Of a stretch of DNA of 34,125 nt, positions 6,631 through 33,686 are shown one piece after another (positions within the stretch are counted from its first letter, which is position 1; the number at the start of each line of letters is the position of its first letter). The notes beneath the pieces are model-generated. The model saw only the letters and a list, made by a program, of their open reading frames with translations. It was not told the origin of the DNA and did not search any database. Source of the stretch: Podaxis mareebaensis (taxonomy: Eukaryota > Basidiomycota > Agaricomycetes > Agaricales > Agaricaceae). Position numbers and translations under genes: made by a program. Location: assembly GCA_018524725.1 (NCBI GenBank), contig JAEUWP010000146.1, positions 1-34,125 of the forward strand. Direction: 5' to 3'.

Positions 6631-9600
6631 CTAGCGGCCACCGCGATTAGACCGAGTAGAAGCAAGTCGGTGCGACTCGACCTCGGTGTTAGGTGTGGGT
6701 GATATATTGCCCTCACGGATCCTCTTGTGTACATGGGTAGCTGATGGAAACGAGATATTTGTACACGGGGGGCAAGGAAATGAGATTATCGGGGACAAGC
6801 CAATAGGGATTTGAAACTCACTGGGACTGCGTTGGTGGTGTGGTTGTGCACGCTTGAGATTAGGAGGCTGAGAAGCTGTGGAAGCGGCAGCATTACAGAG
6901 ATAAGGACAATCTGTAGAGCGGAAGGAAATGGGCGAAGAAACATACATTGGATGTTGACTTGTGTAGGAGAGTCTGGGAATGAGAGAATTTGATTGAGTG
7001 CGTGGGGTATATGGATGATCGTGGTAAGGCAAGAGATGTGAGCGTGTAAACGTACTGGACTTGCTCCTAATAGCGTCGTGATCTATCGCATCGTCATTGA
7101 TATTGCAGTCTATAGGGAAGTGCGTCATTCAGGCGAATAGGTGAAATAAAATTGTAATCAAAGGTGACACGCTTACTGTCCCATTTCTTTGAAATCGAGT
7201 CGATGGTGTTCTCTCCATCATTATCTATGGAGCGGAAATAAATCAGACCCGTCTTATCAGAAACATGTAGATATAGGTTAGGAAACATACCAGCGTTTGC
7301 AACTGGTTCCGTGTATATGAAACATAAGATCAAACGAAGTTTGAGATGCGTCACGGAACTCACGCGACCCAGGTTCGATGTCCATCAATTGCGATCCATC
7401 GTCTGCTTTGGGGCATGTTGGTAACCCATCCGAAGTGACACAAAGATGGACTCACGCTTCATAGATTCGATTGCGCTGGACTTTGGCTGCTCCGCTGTTT
7501 GAAACGTGTGAATAAGCCCGCTGGTACGTTCAGTTACATCAGCGGTGTCTCACTTAAAGATTCTATACAAGTGTAGGAGGTGGTTATTAGCACCCGCGGA
7601 TATTATGAGGTCGATCGGCGGTGAATTAACATACCGTTGTCTTGCTCAACATTGTCGTTCCTCCTCGTCTCGCCTTCTATTCCTTCCATTTTCCCTCCTG
7701 GTGCGTCGCCACCCAGTCCAGAAACCTTTCCATCGCCACCGTCCGTCTTGTCGTTTTCACCCACATCCTCGCCGCATTCGTCTTCATTTTCACCACCGTC
7801 CTCTCTGCCTTCGTCTCCACCCTCATCACCTTCCTCATCACCGTTGTCCTCATCCCCCTCGCTTTCCTCCTCATCTTCTTCACTGTTTTCCTCTTCATCC
7901 TCTTGGCATTTCCCACTTTCCATCGCACAGTTGTTGTCATTTTCGGGGCCATCCTGTACATTATCGACTAACATGGGATCGGTTTGAGGGGGAGGTGTAC
8001 CTAGAATGGACGCGTTAAACACCCCGCTGATCTACTAGCTGAAATGCGCGGTACAATACCTGTGCGTCTGGTATCTGGGCCATCTCCTTCCTTGGCGTTT
8101 CGATCTTTGCATATATGTTTGCCTTGGTGTGGCTGGGAGGGGGTAGGGTGATGTTGTGACGCCCCTAGTAAATATCCATTGAATACAGCGCTGGTATACT
8201 GAGTGAAATGTATGGTACGGTACCTGGATCATCGACCTCTACACCATCTTCCTCCATGGCATCGGCGTCTTTGCGTATCTCCATGACTTGTTGGGGTTGG
8301 GAAGAAGGCGTTAGATCTGGTTCGGGTTGCATTCGTTTATGATCCGCTGCATTCTTGTGTTGATTGGCCGTCAGTTTTACCTGGAAATATATGAACACCG
8401 AAGACAGTGGGAATATGCATTCCACTACAGGACATGACCGACTTACCGCTTTTGTCTTCTCCCGGTCTAGTTTACCCTCAGTAGGATCCTCTTCCTCCTG
8501 GCGAGTATACATAGCCAGTGTACGGAGTGTGAGATTGCAGTATCATAAGGCAAAGAGTATACGCACCGGTAGGGATTCCGTCCATCCAGGAATTCGTTTG
8601 TATTCAAGATCGTGGAGATCGATGTCGTCGACATTGTATTCATCTTTCAATGGGTCGATCGGATCATCAGGGTTATTTTTGAGGACCGCGTTCATAAGTG
8701 CGTGTCGCTTCACGTTCTGGAGAGCGGCCTATGGATTGTATATGATACATCAAGTGATAAATTGAATTTATAGGCAGAGAGTAAAAAGACGTACGTATTC
8801 AAGCTTATCCAGTAAATTGCGGATGGTGTCGTCCAAGAGAGAGGTGTCAGGAGCCGCCGCGAAGATCGGAAGTGCTTGTGCTTTCATTAGGAACCCTTTC
8901 AGTGTTCGTCGCCCCTCCACCTCTGCCGCATTCTTTTCCCGTGTGGCCGCCAACTCTGCTACATTCACGCTCGGTTTTGCGATCCGCTCCCGGTCAGCTC
9001 GGAGTACGATTAAGTCTGGATAGGCCCACCCCTTGACAGTTTTCACTTTCACTTTCTTTCCATCGACGAACTTTACAACCCTGTCCATGCAGAACGGCTT
9101 CAGGCTCTCTTGAAATGCGTGTCGAAGGTATGCCGCTGCATCAGATTTTTCCAAGAGCTGGGAACGGTACTTATTGACGGCGTCGATCTCGAGGAGTGCG
9201 AAGTGCGCGAATTTAGTATAGTCACGGCCATGGTTCCTTTTCCCGGGGTCCCTCCAGTCAGCGCAGGTCTTCTGGTTCAGGGGCCAGTATTCCAGTGATT
9301 TCACATTGCGATTCTTCTTCATCCAGTTTACCAGGGGTTCCACCTTCCGTTTGAGATCTGGTTGCGCTTCCACAAGTACAGCAGGAGTTTGTCCACCAGA
9401 ATTGGTGGTACGTGCTGGGATTATGTAGTCCATCATGTCGTGCTCGAGTTGGTGGAAAACGGCGAGGTGTTGGAATGGAAAGAATGCGAACTGGAGTCAA
9501 AATATTAGCTCAAAGACACAAATGTGCAGTGCTGAGACTCACCCGGTCAACTGCAGAGTCAGTGAGGGACGCATTGAACACTCCATCTTGGTTCATCCCA

Positions 9601-12016
9601 AGGGTCCTCAGGACAAATACCGCGGCATCACGGGGGTCCGTCAGAACCTTGTTGCCGTTGGTGAGGTAGATTGACATCGGACAAACCCATGACAAAAACT
9701 CGTAGATATCATGTTAATACCTTATCCGAATAATCTGTTTAAGGATACTCACCTCAGCCAAGGCGTTTGGGATCAGTTGGAATGCTTGTGCGATACAGAT
9801 GAGAACATTTGGCGTGATGAGGGGGAGGACGGGGGCATAATGGTATTCTCCGTGGTTGAACGAAATCCATTCGAGCTTCCGCAGGATTCCAGACTTGAGC
9901 ATAGCGCGCTCTGGGGTCGAGCTATTGATGTTTGTGAACGCGGTTAACATAATACTCGTGAACTTCAACATATACTCCTTGATGTGCGAATCCCAAGTGT
10001 CGTCACCCACGGCACAGAAATGTGCTACATCCGCAAGCATATCAGCAGCGAGTGCGTCAATGCTTGAGAACACGTCATTGGGCAACAGGTTGAGCAACGA
10101 AGTCGTTTCGGACGAGGTGAGCGAGCTCCAAGTTGAGGATGCGGTCAGCGCATGGCGCTTGTTGATGGTGGGTGTGGTGGATGAACACGCGTTTTGGTAC
10201 TTTCCCCACTGCTCCTCGTTGTTCCCGTCGACGTCGTATAAAATCGTGGGCGAAAATAATCCAGACCACTGATCTAGCGAGTAACTTGCATACTTAATAA
10301 TGAACTGTTGGTGAAGCATTATCGCATATTCAGCACTAAAACCGTCGATCACTAGCAGGCGACTTACCCCTCCTGCCGTCGCCATCAGATGCTTTCCAAC
10401 CCAAGCTTTTGTCATCGGAGGAGACAAATGGAAATGATTTCCAAAGTTGAGCAAGCGGAGGAGTAATTTCAACGTCTCGCTGCTGTGCATCAGATGGGGG
10501 AGGATAGTTTTGTCTACAACGGTGTTGAATGAATTGATGTTAGCAATTGCTGCTGAAGGATCGTCTGACGATTCGAGCTCGTTGTGATAAACTAAGACAC
10601 GGTGCAGCTGCTCGGCGTCGCTTTCGACGGTGCGGATGCTGGCTTTGTTGCTGGAGATATACGTTCCCAAGTGTTTCTCGCGAACAAGTTCTAATTAGTT
10701 GTGAAGTGAGAAGCGCATCCGGCACAACAGAATACATCACACTTACTAGCGTTGTAAACAATGACACCCCACATTTTGACGGTGGCCTTCTTTGCGTTGA
10801 TCTCGTCTATGTCCTTCTGTATCGAGGTGACGGTGGCGCCGTCGAGGAGTAGCTCATCCGCCTCGTCGTCATCTGACTCCTCCGTCTCAACTTCTTTCCC
10901 CTTTCCCTTCCCCGCTGCCTTCCCCTTTCCCTTCACCTTGGGTTTCTCTTTTGTTGGCCCGGTTTGCTTGGCCTCGAGACGCTCACTGAGGGACTTCAGT
11001 TTCTTGTCCAATGCCCCTAAGACATGGAGGACGGCTTTGCGGCGGTGATTCCCACCGCAGGCAGTTATCTGTTTTTGTTGCTTGCCTATCTCGCTCAACA
11101 CGAGGCGAGGCGCCTTGCTGCCGAGTGTGATGTCCTTGTTGATGCAGGAGCTGTCGATGTCTTCAGGATTCAGGAGGATGGGGATCATCGACTCCTGCTT
11201 GAAGGGGGCGAAGTTTTCGCTCATGAACTCATTCGCTAGGTCCCTGACACCAGTTTGAACGATTGGACGAGGATTGAACTCTCCGATGTGGAGGGGAAGC
11301 GGTGCATCGATCAAGTCCATCGTGTTGATGGATATGATCGCTGCACGTGTGTCGTCTTCAAGACTTGTCTCCAATGAGGACGACGTTTTATCGTTTGCTT
11401 TGCCACCCTGTAGCGGTTGTTTCTCTGGGATAACGACTTTGTTTGTGATAGACGAAGTTCCGCTATTATCGCGATGTGGATCGGCGGGTGCGGGAGTGGG
11501 AATGGGAATGGGTTCGCTTGCCGTCGATGAAGACCCGCGTTTTCTGGTAGGCAGATGTGCGGAGGGTGGTGGGTCTGTATCCGAAAGTTCTTCTACGTTT
11601 ATTGGTGTTTCCGTCCCAGCGGCGGAAGAACGCCCAGATACTTTGTTGACACGGGACATGTATTCTTGAGTCGCTTCCACAAGAGACTGGTAATATTTCC
11701 CACCTAAGCTCTTTGAACGCTGGTCTCCCTTGCTAGACGACTCCCCACGCTTCGCAGAAATAAATTCGTCGGCTGGCATAGGTATCTACCGTTTAACGAA
11801 CGAACATGCGATCAGTATGTGTTTAGGCGTATATGAGAACCAGTCACTTTCGCTGACCTTCTTATCGACATATTCTACGCTCCCGAAGGCACCAGTGTCC
11901 TTCGAGGTTTTGATCGCCTTGGAAGAAGGTGCCTGTTTGGGCTTGGCAGCAGCTGCGTTCGATTGGGCATTCGCTTGCTTCGCGGACTTTGATTTCTTCG
12001 ACGTCCTTGGAGGCAT
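6631..12016 (-). CDS. Gene A: ParB/sulfiredoxin-like domain protein (19 exons, 1377 aa)
   Basis: Exons (minus): 12016-11858, 11785-10747, 10690-10368, 10304-9753, 9698-9543, 9490-8795, 8728-8567, 8497-8447, 8380-8224, 8164-8060, 8000-7635, 7494-7456, 7402-7364, 7302-7291, 7224-7177, 7109-7056, 6958-6947, 6875-6822, 6740-6631; they sum to 4134 nt in frame. Basic N-terminus (MPPRTSKKSKS); residues about 215-305 resemble a ParB/Srx fold (FNPRPIV, GVRDLANEF, MIPILLN, ITACGGNHRRKA) but the position of the sulfiredoxin catalytic Cys is Asn. A Lys-rich then acidic linker follows (about 326-365), then a large region conserved with gene B (LLLRLLNFGNHFHL, SYSLDQW, HYAPVLPLITP, LEHDM, YWPLNQK..ADWR), a very acidic exon 11, and a basic C-terminus (STRSNRGGR). 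No membrane segments. Introns from exon 8/9 onward are nearly all phase 1. Probably nuclear, given its composition; biochemical role unknown. The end exons rest on splice signals and comparison with B. Confidence 0.82.
7635..8000 (-). other. Acidic low-complexity exon of gene A
   Basis: Exon 11 encodes a Glu/Asp/Gly-rich tract (EDEEENSEEDEEESEGDEDN and onward). It occupies the position of the Asp/Gly repeat exon of gene B (29342-28680) but the repeats are of a different kind. Confidence 0.75.
8001..8310 (-). repeat. Tandem exon-intron duplication inside gene A
   Basis: Exon 9 end plus its 59-nt intron (8223-8165) resembles exon 10 plus its 59-nt intron (8059-8001). Both introns begin GTA..GTACC..CATTTCA and end CTAG. 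The proteins align as TPSSQPQQVMEIRKDADAMEE against TPSQPHQGKHICKDRNAKE. Confidence 0.65.
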
Positions 12017-13373: not shown

Positions 13374-14160
13374 AGGTTTTCTGGGAAATTATGAATACCC
13401 AGTATAGCTTCAGTTTAGATCAGTCTGCAGGTATCGGTCTATCAACAAGCGGTTGTATATCTTGATGCTAGTCGTTCGTTCCCGTTTTCATTCTTTTTTC
13501 CCGCTTGAACCGAGTCACAGTTCCTAAAGCTCACTTGAATTTTTCTATGATCGTCTCGTCGGGCTAGCCCTAACCCCTCCATGCTCTCAATTTGCATAAA
13601 TATAATATAACATCAGTGACTATCGCCCTTTCGTCTGCCATCTAATGTGACCTCCTTTATTCCCTGACCTATGTACCTCACGATCGCCCTTCACTACTAT
13701 CCTACTTGCAAACTTCTTGCCCTTAGTTCCATCGCTCATTCATCACACTGTGATCATATCATTTCTACTAAGTCCCTTTCCTTTCCTTTATCCCTACGAA
13801 TTATCACCTCACAGCATATCCTCGTCTACCCATAACTATCCATCTTCCCTCCTGTTGATAGACGTCCTGTTCGGAGTTTATAGATGTTGTCAGAACATAT
13901 GACAGAACACTTTGCTAATCTCCCCTCAAGGGATCCTGTGTCCTGTTCGTACATACCAACCTAATGCTCGCTACCTATTTGATGCATGATCTTCCTCCTT
14001 TCTTCTATACACTTCACTTCCTAGCGGCAGTCATTCTTAAACAGAGAATGTGTTACCACATGCATGTGATCAGTTTATTCAATGTATGCGTGCTCATACA
14101 GGAGTCTATGGAGTTCAGCTGTACAGCATAATATGCAATTGACATTCACATAAATTCACT
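13374..14160. other. Intergenic, no supported gene
   Basis: Pyrimidine-biased + strand with short ORFs only; nothing recognisable. Confidence 0.55.
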
Positions 14161-14166
14161 GACCCG

Positions 14167-14432
14167 TTCGTTCACTGACTTGTTCATTCATGGACTTGTT
14201 TATTCACGGACTCGTCCATTCACAGGCTTGTTGATTCACGGACTTGTTAATTCGCGGACTCATTCATTCACGGACTCATTCGTTCACGGACTCATTCATT
14301 CACGGACTCATTCGTTCATGGACTCATTCGTTCACGGACTCATTCGTTCACGGACTCATTCATTCACGGACTTGTTCACTCACGGACTTGTTCATTCACG
14401 GACTTGTTCATTCACGGACTTGTTCATTCATT
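14167..14432. repeat. 16-bp minisatellite (about 16 copies)
   Basis: Tandem units close to TTCACGGACTCATTCA, varying mainly at ACTCATTC versus ACTTGTTC. Because the unit lacks stops and 16 is not a multiple of 3, the same open frame recurs every 48 bp, which explains the long repetitive ORF (SFTDSFVHGLIHSRT-like) here. Not a gene. Confidence 0.85.
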
Positions 14433-28256: not shown

Positions 28257-31200
28257 CTAGCCTGCTCTGGGTCGGACGTTTGGACGGCGACGGCGCTCGA
28301 CATTGTTGTTTGAAGCAGATGACTGGGATGGCTGCAGTTTCATGGAAGGGGTGGAATCGCGGACTTTCTTCTGAGCCTGGGGAGCTGAAAGGGGATTGGC
28401 GGAAGAACATATGAGATCAAGGAATATAAGGGATTAAAACAGAAGGACAGGACTACTCACGAGGGCTACTGGCGGAGTCAGGTACTGGGCGCTTGAGAAG
28501 GTTATGGCTAGATGCGGTTGTAAAATCTTTTTTAAACGTGAGGTGCTGTATGGGGAGGAAACAGAAAAAGTGAAATGTACCTTGATTTTCCGATGAGGCG
28601 GGTGAAGCTAGACGAAGAGACGAGACATGTCAATAAGCACGTTGATGAAATGCATGAATGAGGGAACGATGGGATGTACCTGGCCTTGTCTCAAGGGTTC
28701 CGATGAAGTTTGCAAAGCTTGGGGTTTCTTCAATGTCCATGGACTGGGATAGCGAATGGTCGAGGGACATGTTTGATACCATGGTGGTGTTTCCGGGTTC
28801 AACGGTAGTGGTGTCCATTTGGATGTTGTTGCTGCTAGTGGCGACTTGGGTGGACTCGGTTGTGTTGCTGTGCTCGCTATTGACCACATCTTCCACCTCT
28901 TTCACCTTGATCCCACCATCTTTGTCACCCCGTTCCTCATTCTCAGCACCATCTTTGTCACCGTCACCATCGCCATCCTCATCACCATCGCCGTCCTCAT
29001 CGCCATCGCCATCGCCATTGCCATTGCCATCACCGTCGCTGTCCTCATTACCATCACTGTCCTCATTGTCCTCGCCTTCATCATCCTCATTCCCATCACC
29101 ATCACTGTCGTCATCGTCGTTGGTATTGTCACCTTCATCTTGTTCGTTCTTACCATCCTTTGCCTTGTTGGCCTTGAGCTCTGCTTTCGTACGACCATTG
29201 ACAACTGGGTCCGCATCTGTATCATCATTTGCTTGTGACTTGTCCTGATCTCTAATGCCTGCTTCAGTGCCACGGGTCTTCTCACTGAGAGGTTTGGGGT
29301 CGTTGGGATCGGTGACGTTGCACTCGTCGCTGAGGCATATATCTAGCATCTTTTGAGTACAATGTCTTGTTGAGAAATGGATAACATACCTATGTCAACG
29401 TGGTACAATAAGTATCAATGTTGTGGAGATGGTCAGCAAGAATCTGTATTTATTAAGTAGGAGAAAACATACCAGATGCGACCTTTTGTCCACTGGCAGT
29501 CACTGAGACCATCTCGACATCTTCGTCACCACCGCCATCTTTGGAAGAACCTAAGACAACAGAGGTGGTTATCAATGAGCCCCATGAATACTTATACGCA
29601 AAGTTGCAGGTCGTACCTGTACATATGATATGTGAGGATCAGATATGAGCTGAAGGGAGCGTGCTGATACATATAGATATATCGGCAGTATACACACGTA
29701 CCTTGTCCCTGTGGTGCTGTGATGAAGAAAATGTGGTGTCAGCCTGCCGATCTCTGTGCATGGATTGGGGGCGTATATATACGCACCCTTTCTGTTCGGT
29801 TCTGTGACAAGAAGTAGCATATTATTAGCCCGCCAATCTCTGTGCATGAATTGGAGGCGTATATACGCACCCTTTCTGTTCGGTTCTGTGACAAGAAGTA
29901 GCATATTATTAGCCCGCCAATCGCTGTGTATGAATTGGCGGATGTTCACATACCCTCGATGGTTGGTTCTGTGACAAAGAATAGCATGTTGTGTTAGTCC
30001 GCCAATTAAGGTGTGTGGATCGGAGGGCATATGCATACCATTCTGCTTCTTGACATTGGTCCGCAGATTTGGAGTTGTTGATAGGCGGGACTCTGTAACA
30101 GTTCATTGGTTTGTAAATGTGGTTTCAGTTAGACAAACCAGAGGCTTACTCTGCGGTTCGGAACAATCTTCCTTGTCATCGATAACATTTGTCGACACGT
30201 CGTCGTCAGAGTCGAGGAGATTTGGTGGCTGCAAAGAGGGTGTGGGTTCTGTGGTCGATGTCGATGGCTCCTCTGACTTTTGCGCTTTCCTTTCTTTTGC
30301 CGCTTGCCCCTGTAACCTCGATGTATAGAGGACGGTGGATAACAAAGTGTAAGAAAACCTACCTCACTAGATTCCCAGTAGCCTTCGACGTGAATATAAT
30401 CCAGCTTCTGTACATTTTTGGAGCTGACCTTGTATTCGTCACTGTACGGGTCCAGTTCAAAATCGGCATTTGGGTCTTTCAGAGCCTCGTTGATCATTGC
30501 ATGTCGCTTCATGTTCTTGAGTACAGCCTGTGACGTTGTGCATCAGACAGAGTAGGAGTAGAAGTAATGCTGCAGTGCATACCATAATCAATTTATCCAG
30601 ATAATAGCGAACATCATGATCCATCGGTGTCGCGTTTGGATATGCTGCCACGATCGGTAGGCTTTGCACCTTCTGGACAATAGCAACCAGGGCTTTTCGA
30701 CCGTTCTCCTCAGCACTGCTCTCCTTGCGTATTTTCATCAGCTGCTTGATGTTGACTACAGGTGGCAGGGGAGGATCTTGAGTTGGCGATTGGATCAGAT
30801 CAGGGTAGACCCAACCATGGCATGGTTCGGCCGCCTTGTCCTCGACGTACTTGACCCTCCGCTCTATACAAAACCGTCCCAATGTTTCTTGTAATGCATG
30901 ATGAAGGTATGCGGCAGCGGCGGATTGCTCGAGAAGTTGTTGACGGTATTTATTGACGATGCCTATTTCGATCAAGGTGAACACTGCAAACTTGACATAG
31001 TCACGCTTTACGTTGTGGCTCTTCGATTCTTGCCGCCAGTCGACACATAATTTCTGGTTGAGGGGCCAGTACTTCTTGGTCACCGTATTCGTAATACCCT
31101 TCATCCATTCTGCTAAGACACCCGCCTTCTGTCTGACACCAGGGAAGCTCGCGTCGAGTTTGGCTGGCAGTTGTTGACCGGACTGGATGGGACGTGCGGG

Positions 31201-33686
31201 GACGGTGATCCCAGGGAGATTCGTCATATCATGCTCGAGTTGGTGAAGGTATTTGATGTGCTTGAACGGGAAGAATGCGAACTGGTTGCAAGACATGTGG
31301 ATATAGGATAGTCGCAACGAGACTGTACGATCACTTACAGACCGGACGAGATCATCAATGGCATGCGTTTGAAAGATCCCGTCTTTGTTCAAGCTAAGTG
31401 TCTTGATTATAAACAGCGAAGTGTCTTGAGGGTCACTGAGGTTCTTGTTCCCATTCGCTATATACGGTGCTAGTGGGTATGTCCATGAGAGGATCTAACA
31501 ATCACATGTTAACACCATAGAATCTCAAACCGGAAATATCAGAACTCACCTCGAGCAGTGCATGTGGGAATGAATCGAAGATGGCAGCCATGTACTGGAT
31601 GACCTTAGGAGTAACGAGAGGGAGGACGGGTGCATAGTGGAGTGACTGGTGGTTGAACAGGATCCATTCGAGTTTCTGGGGGAGGGCTTGCTTCACATTG
31701 GTGACGTCTTCGCCTTCTCTGTCGGCCTTTCCTATATTTGTTATCAATGTACTCTTAACTGCTGTGGTATAATTGTTCAACAAGCTGTTCCAATCAGTGT
31801 CTCCAGTAATACCGAAGAGAGTTGTGTCAGCGAATAGCGGTTTGGCGAGGTCATCAATTGACTGGAATGTTCTCTTTGCCATGAGGTCGAAACACGGGAC
31901 TCTCTGGTGGTTGGTTATCACTGCCCAACTCGAAGTTGAGGTCATGACTGCCTGGCTGTTGGAAGTCGCATTGGTAGATGAGACCACTTTCTGGTAAGCT
32001 GCCCATTTGTCATCGTTGTTACCATCAACGAGTGAGAGCTGCGACGGGGAGAGGAGACACTCCCACTGATCGAGGGAATATTCGATGTATGAGATGAGAA
32101 ACTAAGGAACCATGCGTTCGTACAAGTCAGTGGTGTTTTGAATGACAAATGCTGTTCATACGTACCCCTCCCGCAGTGTTCATTAAGTTATCATGGACCC
32201 AGGCCTTCGACATTACTCTGTGGAGGTGGAAGTGTGAACCGAAGTTCAGGAGGCGGATGAGGAGATTGCGGACGTCGACGCTTTGCATGATGTGGGGCAA
32301 CCAGTTGTGGTTGCTTGTCGTCTTCATCGAATCCACATATGCCTCTGCACCAATGTGATCCTGCTGAACGATGAAGTTGTTGTACATTTGCAAGACACCA
32401 TGCAGGTGTTCAGCATCGCTCTCAGCAGTTTGGACGAATTTTCTGTTGCTGGAAAGATAGACTGCGAGGTTGTTCTTCTGGACTACCTCTGTTATAGACG
32501 TATATTATTAGTAGCTGAGCTCCATGGCGATCAGAAACACATACCGGCGTCATAGAGAATTACTCCCCACGAAGAGTAGTAAACTTTGTCAGCCTGTAGC
32601 ATGTCGATGTTGTCGTTGAGTTCTTCGATGCTCTTCTTTTCGGTGTCGATGTTGACTGGGTCGATATCAATGAAATCGTTGTTGCCGTCCAGTTCTTCCA
32701 CTGACTTCTCCGCCTTCACCTTCTTCGCTCCCTTTGCTTTCCCTTTCAACTTGTTTATGCGTAACTCGAGGCCTTTTATCTTCTTGTCGATGTTCTCTTG
32801 CATTTTCCGAACAGCTTCGTATCGATGGCGGCCACCCAGAGCAGTGAGGCTATCTCGTGTCTGGCCTTTCTTGGAAAGAAGAAGCTGAGGGGCATCATGA
32901 CCAAGTGTGAAATCAAGGTTAATGCAGCTGGGATCGACATCGTTGCGATTGATGAGGATCGGGATCATTGACTCCATTTTGAAAGGAGTGAAGTCATCCT
33001 CGAAAGCTTTGATGAGTTCTTTGACTCCCGAATCGACGACAGGTCGAGGGTTGAATGTACCGAAATGGAGTTTGAGTGGAGGGTTGGTTAGGTTGATTCG
33101 GTTCACAGAGAGGATCGCCTTCCGAGACATCTCATCTGCATTGGCTGTGGCCTTTTTGCGCGAGCTGTTGGGGTCAGCAGTGAGCCCGCCGATTTGGGCA
33201 GTGGGACCAGCGGACTTCTTGGTGGGAAGGGGTGTTGTGGTCCTAGACCCGCCAATCGAACCGATATCATCAGCGGGCTCGGCCAGAGGGTCAGTGAGAT
33301 CGATCTGCACAGCCGTTTTGGACCCGCGAATCTTGGTAGGTGGAATGGCGGGAGGATCAGGGGCAGGAGTGGGGGAGGAATTGGCCCTGGATGTAGACGC
33401 ACGCCTCTCTGCATACTCCTTAGCTTTCTCTGCGAGAGATCGGTAGAAGCTCCCACCTCCGCTCGGTCCAGTCCCATGGCCGTCTACATACACCTGTTTG
33501 CCACCAACCGTTATGTCTACTTTTCATATCCAACAGAGTCGATGTTTCTGTACTCGCCTTATCAACAATCTCCAGTGTCCCTGGGAACACTCTGACCGTC
33601 ATATTATCACCAGCCTTCACCTTCGCCTTTCCTTGTTTCTTTCCGCTCGCTTTCGAACCAGAAGCTTTCGCAGACTTGGGGGGCAT
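28257..33686 (-). CDS. Gene B: ParB/sulfiredoxin-like domain protein (18 exons, 1402 aa)
   Basis: Exons (minus): 33686-33558, 33493-32545, 32488-32166, 32101-31550, 31494-31339, 31281-30583, 30527-30363, 30309-30150, 30092-30039, 29968-29954, 29885-29871, 29801-29787, 29716-29702, 29550-29473, 29342-28680, then about 28608-28582, about 28525-28460 and about 28384-28257; total 4209 nt, in frame. It is a paralog of gene A: exons 3, 4 and 5 are identical in length and exons 6 and 7 differ by one codon each. Basic N-terminus (MPPKSAKASGSK); ParB/Srx-like domain at about 183-271 (FGTFNPRPVV, GVKELIKAF, MIPILIN, LTALGGRHRYEA), again without the Srx Cys; Lys-rich and acidic linker; conserved middle region (LLIRLLNFGSHFHL, YSLDQW, HYAPVLPLVTP, LHQLEHDM, YWPLNQK..VDWR); then four 15-nt microexons, an Asp/Gly repeat tract, and a basic tail ending RPNVRPRAG. 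Intron 1 begins with GC. Probably nuclear; role unknown. Confidence 0.84.
28930..29115 (-). repeat. Asp/Gly triplet-repeat tract in gene B exon 15
   Basis: Runs of GAT/GAC/GGC/GAG codons encode DGDGDEDGDGDEDGDGD-type sequence. Such triplet runs are prone to length change; the frame stays open throughout. Confidence 0.75.
29702..29968 (-). repeat. Tandem 83-85-nt intron-plus-microexon array in gene B
   Basis: Four 15-nt exons (29968-29954, 29885-29871, 29801-29787, 29716-29702) start 83, 84 and 85 nt apart. Each follows a 68-70-nt intron; the three clearest introns are near-identical over TATGCTACTTCTTGTCACAG. All exons begin and end in phase 1 and encode EPTIE, EPNRK, EPNRK and APQGQ. Each of the four introns carries a member of the palindrome family: 29999-30026, 29913-29941, 29829-29857 and 29743-29772. 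Confidence 0.85.
30061..30089. repeat. 29-nt palindrome within gene B exon 9
   Basis: CCGCAGAT...AT(A)GGCGGG. It lies almost wholly inside the coding exon 30092-30039, directly before the microexon array; it encodes part of RLSTTPNLRT. Confidence 0.5.
33494..33557 (-). other. GC-AG intron 1 of gene B
   Basis: After GTT-GAT-AAG the intron begins GCGAGT, not GT. The paralog gene A has VDKK followed by a GTCAGC donor at the matching place. The 64-nt intron ends CAACAG and splicing keeps phase 0. Confidence 0.6.

Follow-up and report, generated by a model that had tools for sequence, protein, structure and literature searches.

How did a gene come to hold four exons of only 15 nt in succession, each behind an intron of nearly the same size, and are these exons included in its message? 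The question is posed by positions 1-34125 of Podaxis mareebaensis contig JAEUWP010000146.1 (the window, 34,125 nucleotides, from an assembly of 36.95 Mb in 429 contigs), in which four tandem units made of an intron and a microexon occupy minus strand positions 30038-29702, inside a gene that we call gene A. Judging from sequence, the array probably arose by serial tandem duplications of an intron together with a symmetric, phase-1 exon of 15 nt, in the charged and probably disordered C-terminal part of gene A, and it is most likely spliced constitutively, as a near-neutral growth of a linker.

The array and the gene that carries it

Gene A was modelled with 18 exons (Table 1). After the array, the model continues with an intervening sequence of 151 nt, exon 14, a second intervening sequence of 130 nt, an acidic exon of 663 nt, and small exons up to the end. 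Nine introns in a row, 8 to 16 out of 17, are in phase 1; intron 17 was modelled in phase 0, with both its sites and its phase uncertain. Of the coding sequence, which is about 4.2 kb long, the four microexons account for 60 nt. Support for the model comes from its similarity to a tandem paralog, gene B: the two genes are 39-49% identical over five stretches, and their exons 3 and 4 are of equal length (323 and 552 nt). In both genes the introns are short, of the GT-AG type, with CTRAY-like branch motifs.

Two introns of gene A are peculiar. Intron 1 (33557-33494, minus strand) was modelled as GC-AG, with donor GCGAGT, where gene B has GTCAGC at the matching place. A 57-nt intron (31338-31282, minus strand) is a multiple of three without in-frame stop, so that its retention would be invisible from the frame, and it was recognised only through the gene B intron found there. 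The 663-nt exon contains an acidic, Asp/Gly-rich low-complexity repeat at 28958-29155, with DNA repeats of 6 to 24 nt.

No Pfam family scored above cut-off in gene A, none of 7994 scored candidate proteins reached E ≤ 0.001, no homolog was found outside this contig, and Rfam and tRNA scans gave no match. A conserved core (33118-32546 in gene A, 11341-10748 in gene B, both minus strand) contains GGRHRYEAV in one gene and GGNHRRKAV in the other, which we take to recall ParB-like nuclease motifs; Pfam gives no support for this. Structure prediction of the exon-2 region from a two-row alignment was too poor to use (mean pLDDT 38.7). Read by eye, the N-terminus of the model is basic and polar and lacks a hydrophobic stretch, giving no sign of a signal peptide. 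The family is represented a third time by a short stretch at 5216-4905 (minus strand), which is 33% identical to part of gene A and, on reading, seems degraded.

The units of the array measure 85, 83, 84 and 85 nt, each consisting, in the gene model, of a GT-AG intron (70, 68, 69 and 70 nt, respectively) and a 15-nt exon. All four exons are symmetric, being in phase 1 on entry and on exit, and encode, in gene order, EPTIE, EPNRK, EPNRK and APQGQ. The initial annotation had described four 15-nt phase-1 exons in units of 83-85 nt, and had noted that each duplication inserts five residues without a frameshift; the gene model bears out both statements. Its proposal that the units are complete introns with a 5-codon exon, duplicated in tandem, agrees with the detection of the array by Tandem Repeats Finder, independently of the model (period 84, score 338), and with the similarity of introns A9-A12 to each other (z 7.0 to 25.0). 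Adjacent copies, here spaced by 83-86 nt, and symmetric phase are the two marks of a tandem intron and exon duplication, and such an origin is well supported by these features.

The same program, run on the window and 20 sampled stretches (234,125 bases, including 10,003 N, one stretch being all N), returned 43 rows. Five had a period of at least 40; two of these are the array, and the other three were inspected by eye only. Elsewhere in the window, it reported a minisatellite at 14154-14430, in which a 16-nt unit is repeated about 17 times.

Several related introns in one gene could also be copies of a dispersed, introner-like element that inserted repeatedly, and A10 can indeed fold into a hairpin. 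DNA searches of the 36.95-Mb assembly matched the array only (1 and 3 matches), with no copy elsewhere, which disfavours a dispersed element, and the exons were duplicated together with the introns. The four introns do not share this hairpin (z -0.15, -2.28, -1.01 and 0.64 for A9 to A12), which was rejected as a common feature. We consider repeated insertion extremely improbable.

Table 1. Features of genes A and B and of the array, in positions of the window
Feature	Positions	Strand	Basis
Gene A, 18-exon model, ATG 33686, TAG 28259-28257	28257..33686	-	single open frame after splicing; exons 3 and 4 match paralog in length
Exon 9 of gene A, 54 nt, upstream border of the array	30039..30092	-	gene model
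Unit 1 intron (A9), 70 nt, GTATGC ... CTAAC ... CACAG	29969..30038	-	signal score 16.0
Microexon 1, 15 nt, EPTIE, AACCAACCATCGAGG	29954..29968	-	gene model, unit alignment
Unit 2 intron (A10), 68 nt	29886..29953	-	signal score 20.9
Microexon 2, 15 nt, EPNRK, AACCGAACAGAAAGG	29871..29885	-	gene model, unit alignment
Unit 3 intron (A11), 69 nt	29802..29870	-	signal score 20.0
Microexon 3, 15 nt, EPNRK, identical to microexon 2 (AACCGAACAGAAAGG)	29787..29801	-	gene model, unit alignment
Unit 4 intron (A12), 70 nt	29717..29786	-	signal score 20.6
Microexon 4, 15 nt, APQGQ, CACCACAGGGACAAG	29702..29716	-	gene model, unit alignment
Newest duplication, copy 1: 3' part of A10, microexon 2, 5' end of A11	29860..29941	-	96% identity to 29776-29857 over 82 nt, spacing 84
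Newest duplication, copy 2	29776..29857	-	82-nt repeat pair with 29860..29941
A13, first part, 85 nt, ends CAG directly before GTACG	29617..29701	-	signal score 22.1
A13, second part, 66 nt, also an open in-frame stretch of 22 codons, GTTCNFAYKYSWGSLITTSVVL	29551..29616	-	signal score 16.3
Exon 14 of gene A, 78 nt, downstream border of the array	29473..29550	-	gene model
A14, first part, 83 nt, ends TAG directly before GTATG	29390..29472	-	signal score 15.5
A14, second part, 47 nt	29343..29389	-	signal score 15.3
27-nt exon of gene A; gene B counterpart, 27 nt, at 6973-6947	28581..28607	-	paralog comparison
Gene B, tandem paralog, 20-exon model, one open frame to TAG	6631..12016	-	similarity to gene A
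Gene B exon 10 (105 nt) and intron 10 (59 nt), seemingly a tandem copy of the exon 9 end with intron 9	8001..8164	-	DNA and protein alignment

Predicted splicing of the microexons

All exons of the array are multiples of three in a single phase, so that the frame is open with or without them, and an open frame is no proof of their inclusion. Splice signals were scored with a model trained on 29 other introns of genes A and B, leaving out the array introns, A1, A13 and A14. Scores of the array introns (Table 1) compare with a mean of 17.0 for the training introns (sd 3.3, minimum 10.9; n = 29), and with a mean of 5.2 (sd 5.0) for random 70-mers forced to GT..AG, 1.6% of which reach 16.0. A fairer control is to let each random circular unit of 84 nt pick its best GT..AG pair with an exon that is a multiple of three: 62 out of 1500 such units scored at least 16, and 6 out of 1500 at least 20. 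Treated as circles, the four real units gave coding-strand scores of 16.7, 20.7, 19.9 and 21.3, compared to 7.5 to 12.7 for the opposite strand. In the quality of their splice signals, the array introns equal the other introns of the two genes, and they lie above chance. Unit 1 alone is unremarkable compared to the random circular units, whereas the set of four is remarkable, though its members are related; the array introns being homologous, their good signals are not four independent observations. In all four units a CTRAY branch motif precedes the 3' site by 22-25 nt. The branch matrix learned by the model is not stringent, and in A9 it preferred the 7-mer CTTAATT over CTAAC.

Are the 15-nt pieces exons at all? 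Omitting the whole block leaves a single intron of 488 nt (30038-29551), and the array could be an 84-nt minisatellite lying within it, whose splice motifs are leftovers of intron ends. A frame that is open either way, a peptide that is not conserved between units, and the score of at least 16 found in about 4% of the random units are all compatible with this. Intron length argues against it: among the 36 introns of the two genes, 34 measure 52-84 nt (median 65), and the other two only 130 and 151 nt. In addition, three of the four units, related as they are, score at least 19.9, close to the value of 20 that so few random units reach, the signals remain consensus-like in the diverged units, and the tail of gene B was itself modelled with many small phase-1 exons, of 9-54 nt. 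A minisatellite inside one long intron is, in our opinion, quite unlikely.

The narrow range of intron lengths suits intron definition. Each short intron of the array would then be recognised as a unit, and constitutive inclusion of the four predicted microexons is likely; the product would carry the 20-residue linker EPTIE-EPNRK-EPNRK-APQGQ. That 15-nt exons are hard to recognise for the spliceosome, as initially annotated, is a weak concern here given these intron lengths. It is further weakened by the exons of 9 and 12 nt in the gene B model, by the inclusion of a 15-nt exon in Aspergillus niger rtnA (PMC6616335), and by the microexons of fungal P450 genes (PMC1184071).

Alternatively, the microexons may be variably included. 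The near-identical A10 and A11 would let the pairing of splice sites slip, and in-frame isoforms with zero to four units, differing in linker length, would be produced. Every subset of microexons keeps the frame, and microexons 2 and 3 are identical, as are the 3' parts of their upstream introns. For rtnA, a cDNA without the 15-nt exon has been found, by way of a stwintron (PMC6616335). Skipping microexon 1, 2 or 3 alone, on the other hand, requires an intron of 153, 152 or 154 nt, outside the range of 34 of the 36 introns, an objection tempered by A13 and A14, which would be 151 and 130 nt long if they were single introns. We hold variable inclusion to be possible, though on balance not likely.

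A13 (29701-29551, 151 nt) and A14 (29472-29343, 130 nt), on the minus strand, are the only overlong intervening sequences of the two genes. Each contains exactly one central YAG/GTRNG, which splits it into 85+66 and 83+47 nt, respectively, that is, an acceptor followed directly by a donor, between intron-sized parts that have their own signals. A13 and A14 may be abutting intron pairs, separated by an exon of zero length and removed in two steps; the alternative is a single longer intron in each case. Abutting introns are a known class, excised by recursive splicing (PMC6616335). A central YAG/GTRNG was found in 185 of 18985 random genome tracts of the length of A13, and in 129 of 18968 of the length of A14, the looser YAG/GT being about ten times commoner (1807 of 18985 and 1249 of 18968). 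Its presence in both sequences has a chance of about 7 in 100,000 if the two are independent, in a test that was framed after the sites had been seen. The second part of A13, with its 22 open codons, could be retained in the transcript, while that of A14, if retained after removal of the first part, ends by reading in an in-frame TAG. Two further possibilities were rejected by reading: 29616-29551 as an additional small exon using other donors, as these break the frame, and the first part of A13 as an exon, as its 85 nt lead to a stop in the next exon.

History of the array and possible growth of the tails

Units 2 and 3 match in 74 of 84 columns when aligned unit to unit, compared to 51-60 matches in 85-89 columns for the pairs involving unit 1 or 4 (46-60 in a second alignment). 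The best register for units 2 and 3 does not run from intron start to intron start: the longest block starts inside A10 and ends in the first bases of A11, and in this register 82 nt are 96% identical, with 3 differences and a 2-nt difference in length just beyond. Judging from this divergence, the pairs with unit 1 or 4 are older than the duplication that gave units 2 and 3. The copies had been annotated as near-identical and their expansion as recent. The first term fits units 2 and 3 but not the pairs with unit 1 or 4, and the second applies to one duplication, the other units being older. Two types of 5' ends are found among the array introns (A9 and A10 against A11 and A12), and three types of exon and 3' intron end (unit 1; units 2 and 3; unit 4).

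Tandem units of 84 nt in an assembly of 429 contigs raise the suspicion that the near-identical middle unit is an assembly duplication. The 3 differences in 82 positions, the 2-nt length difference and the age of units 1 and 4 speak against it, and we find such an artefact very unlikely.

The identity register indicates that the breakpoints of the newest duplication fall within introns, which means that one full extra intron and exon were gained and five codons added in frame. In the simplest account, an ancestor with three microexons had one intron-exon-intron stretch copied, both breakpoints being intronic. The copied stretch would comprise the 3' part of A10, the EPNRK microexon and the 5' part of the next intron, leaving four microexons.

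What has been kept since the duplications? Identity between exons (10/15 for units 1 and 2, 8/15 for units 2 and 4, 6/15 for units 1 and 4) is not above that between introns (48/70, 42/71 and 40/73, respectively). That exons have diverged at about the pace of introns is an argument against selection for the repeated peptide. Exon length is constant at 15 nt while introns vary between 68 and 70 nt, with six gapped columns among units 1, 2 and 4, in an alignment where exons and the first six intron bases are joined gap-free by construction. Among the same three units, G1, T2, G5 and the final AG are invariant (hypergeometric P 0.02), a result that is partly circular, GT and AG having served to place the borders. 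Taken together, splicing and frame seem to be preserved, and the encoded peptide free to drift. With selection on splice sites and frame only, a near-neutral lengthening of the linker would be most likely, rather than a tuned device, and the 20 residues, placed between charged segments, would form a disordered linker.

The array may be the newest part of a longer habit, as both paralogs have tails with runs of small, symmetric phase-1 exons. In gene B, introns 9-19 are all in phase 1 (11 in a row), and the modelled exons include one of 9 nt (7562-7554) and one of 12 nt (7302-7291), on the minus strand. A further duplication is apparent there: exon 10 and intron 10 can be aligned with about 79 nt from the end of exon 9 plus 45 nt of intron 9, with 82 of 125 DNA columns identical across the exon-intron boundary (a count for which there is no DNA null). 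At the protein level, one shuffle in 1000 attained the observed score of 48, and introns 9 and 10 resemble each other (z 7.3). The place of this duplication, after the conserved exon 9 and ahead of the acidic exon 11, corresponds to that of the array in gene A.

Phase-1 introns are concentrated in the tails, with 9/10 against 1/7 in the body for gene A (Fisher P 0.004; 6/7 in the tail if the array is counted once) and 11/11 against 1/8 for gene B (Fisher P 0.0002), keeping in mind that the border between body and tail was set after the phases had been seen and that the array introns do not count as independent cases. Repeated copying of symmetric units would be expected to leave a succession of introns in one phase. 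Outside the array, adjacent introns of the two genes were not clearly more alike than others (31 pairs, mean z 0.54, one above 3; non-adjacent pairs, n = 593, mean z 0.23, 11 above 3), and a general similarity of neighbouring introns along the tails was rejected, being seen only in the array and between introns 9 and 10 of gene B. The case for growth of the whole tail thus rests on the phases and on one further duplication. Either the older duplications, if any, are beyond recognition, or phase 1 has another cause. A bolder proposal is that the tail in this gene family lengthens through the copying of complete spliced units, intron and exon together, with exon lengths from 105 through 15 down to zero nt (the two abutting pairs, recursively excised), a number of units that varies between strains, and a linker that changes in steps of five residues. 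We put it forward as speculative and rather unlikely in this full form.

Comparison with known systems

Provided that splicing follows the model, intron gain can be observed in progress at this locus: the newest intron is an existing one copied with its 15-nt exon, and the breakpoints as well as the effect of a new intron on splicing can be examined in a single gene. As a natural series of near-identical introns, the array also lends itself to testing directly how strict a spliceosome that works on short introns is in its pairing of adjacent sites, and it illustrates how phase-1 introns could accumulate in succession within a charged tail.

Tandem exon duplication is a familiar process, of which the 54-bp exons of collagen are an example. 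The array resembles such cases, among them the Schistosoma tandem exons that encode 81-base repeats, in that the unit is copied with its intron and that symmetric phase keeps the frame. It differs in that the exon, with 15 nt, is shorter than its 70-nt intron, and in that the duplicated peptide is not conserved.

Micro-exon genes (MEGs) of Schistosoma have short exons, mostly multiples of three and in majority of 15 bp, between introns of 0.1-5 kb, and encode secreted proteins (PMC10526429). Gene A has a comparable series of short exons in multiples of three, in part of the gene only. Its array introns, of 68-70 nt, are unlike the long introns of MEGs. MEG products are secreted (PMC10526429); by reading, a signal peptide is not evident in the gene A product.

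In fungi, microexons of 2-10 amino acids occur in nearly one-third of the P450 genes of the white-rot basidiomycete Phanerochaete chrysosporium (PMC1184071), and Trichoderma Xlr2 has a functional microexon (PMC11121469). These are likewise exons of a few codons between introns, but the available parts of the two reports do not describe them as tandem, near-identical arrays. In rtnA (PMC6616335), the included 15-nt exon lies beside short introns, and the likeness would extend to intron definition and consecutive splicing reactions; stwintrons are nested, whereas the introns around the gene A microexons are separate and the A13 and A14 candidates would be abutting. No prior report of a tandem array of near-identical fungal microexons was found in a literature search that covered mostly titles and the openings of abstracts.

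Tandem duplication has been proposed as a source of introns in Drosophila, where the duplicated sequence is coding and holds a proto-splice site, and one of the copies becomes intronic (PMC2891723). There as here, duplication adds intron positions, but in gene A whole introns were apparently copied. A basidiomycete gene with rapid intron gain is also on record (PMC3584928). Microexons and tandem duplication of intron and exon are thus each known, and it is their combination that is unusual: the ingredients being familiar, the value of the locus is that of a clear example and a test bed, rather than of a new system.
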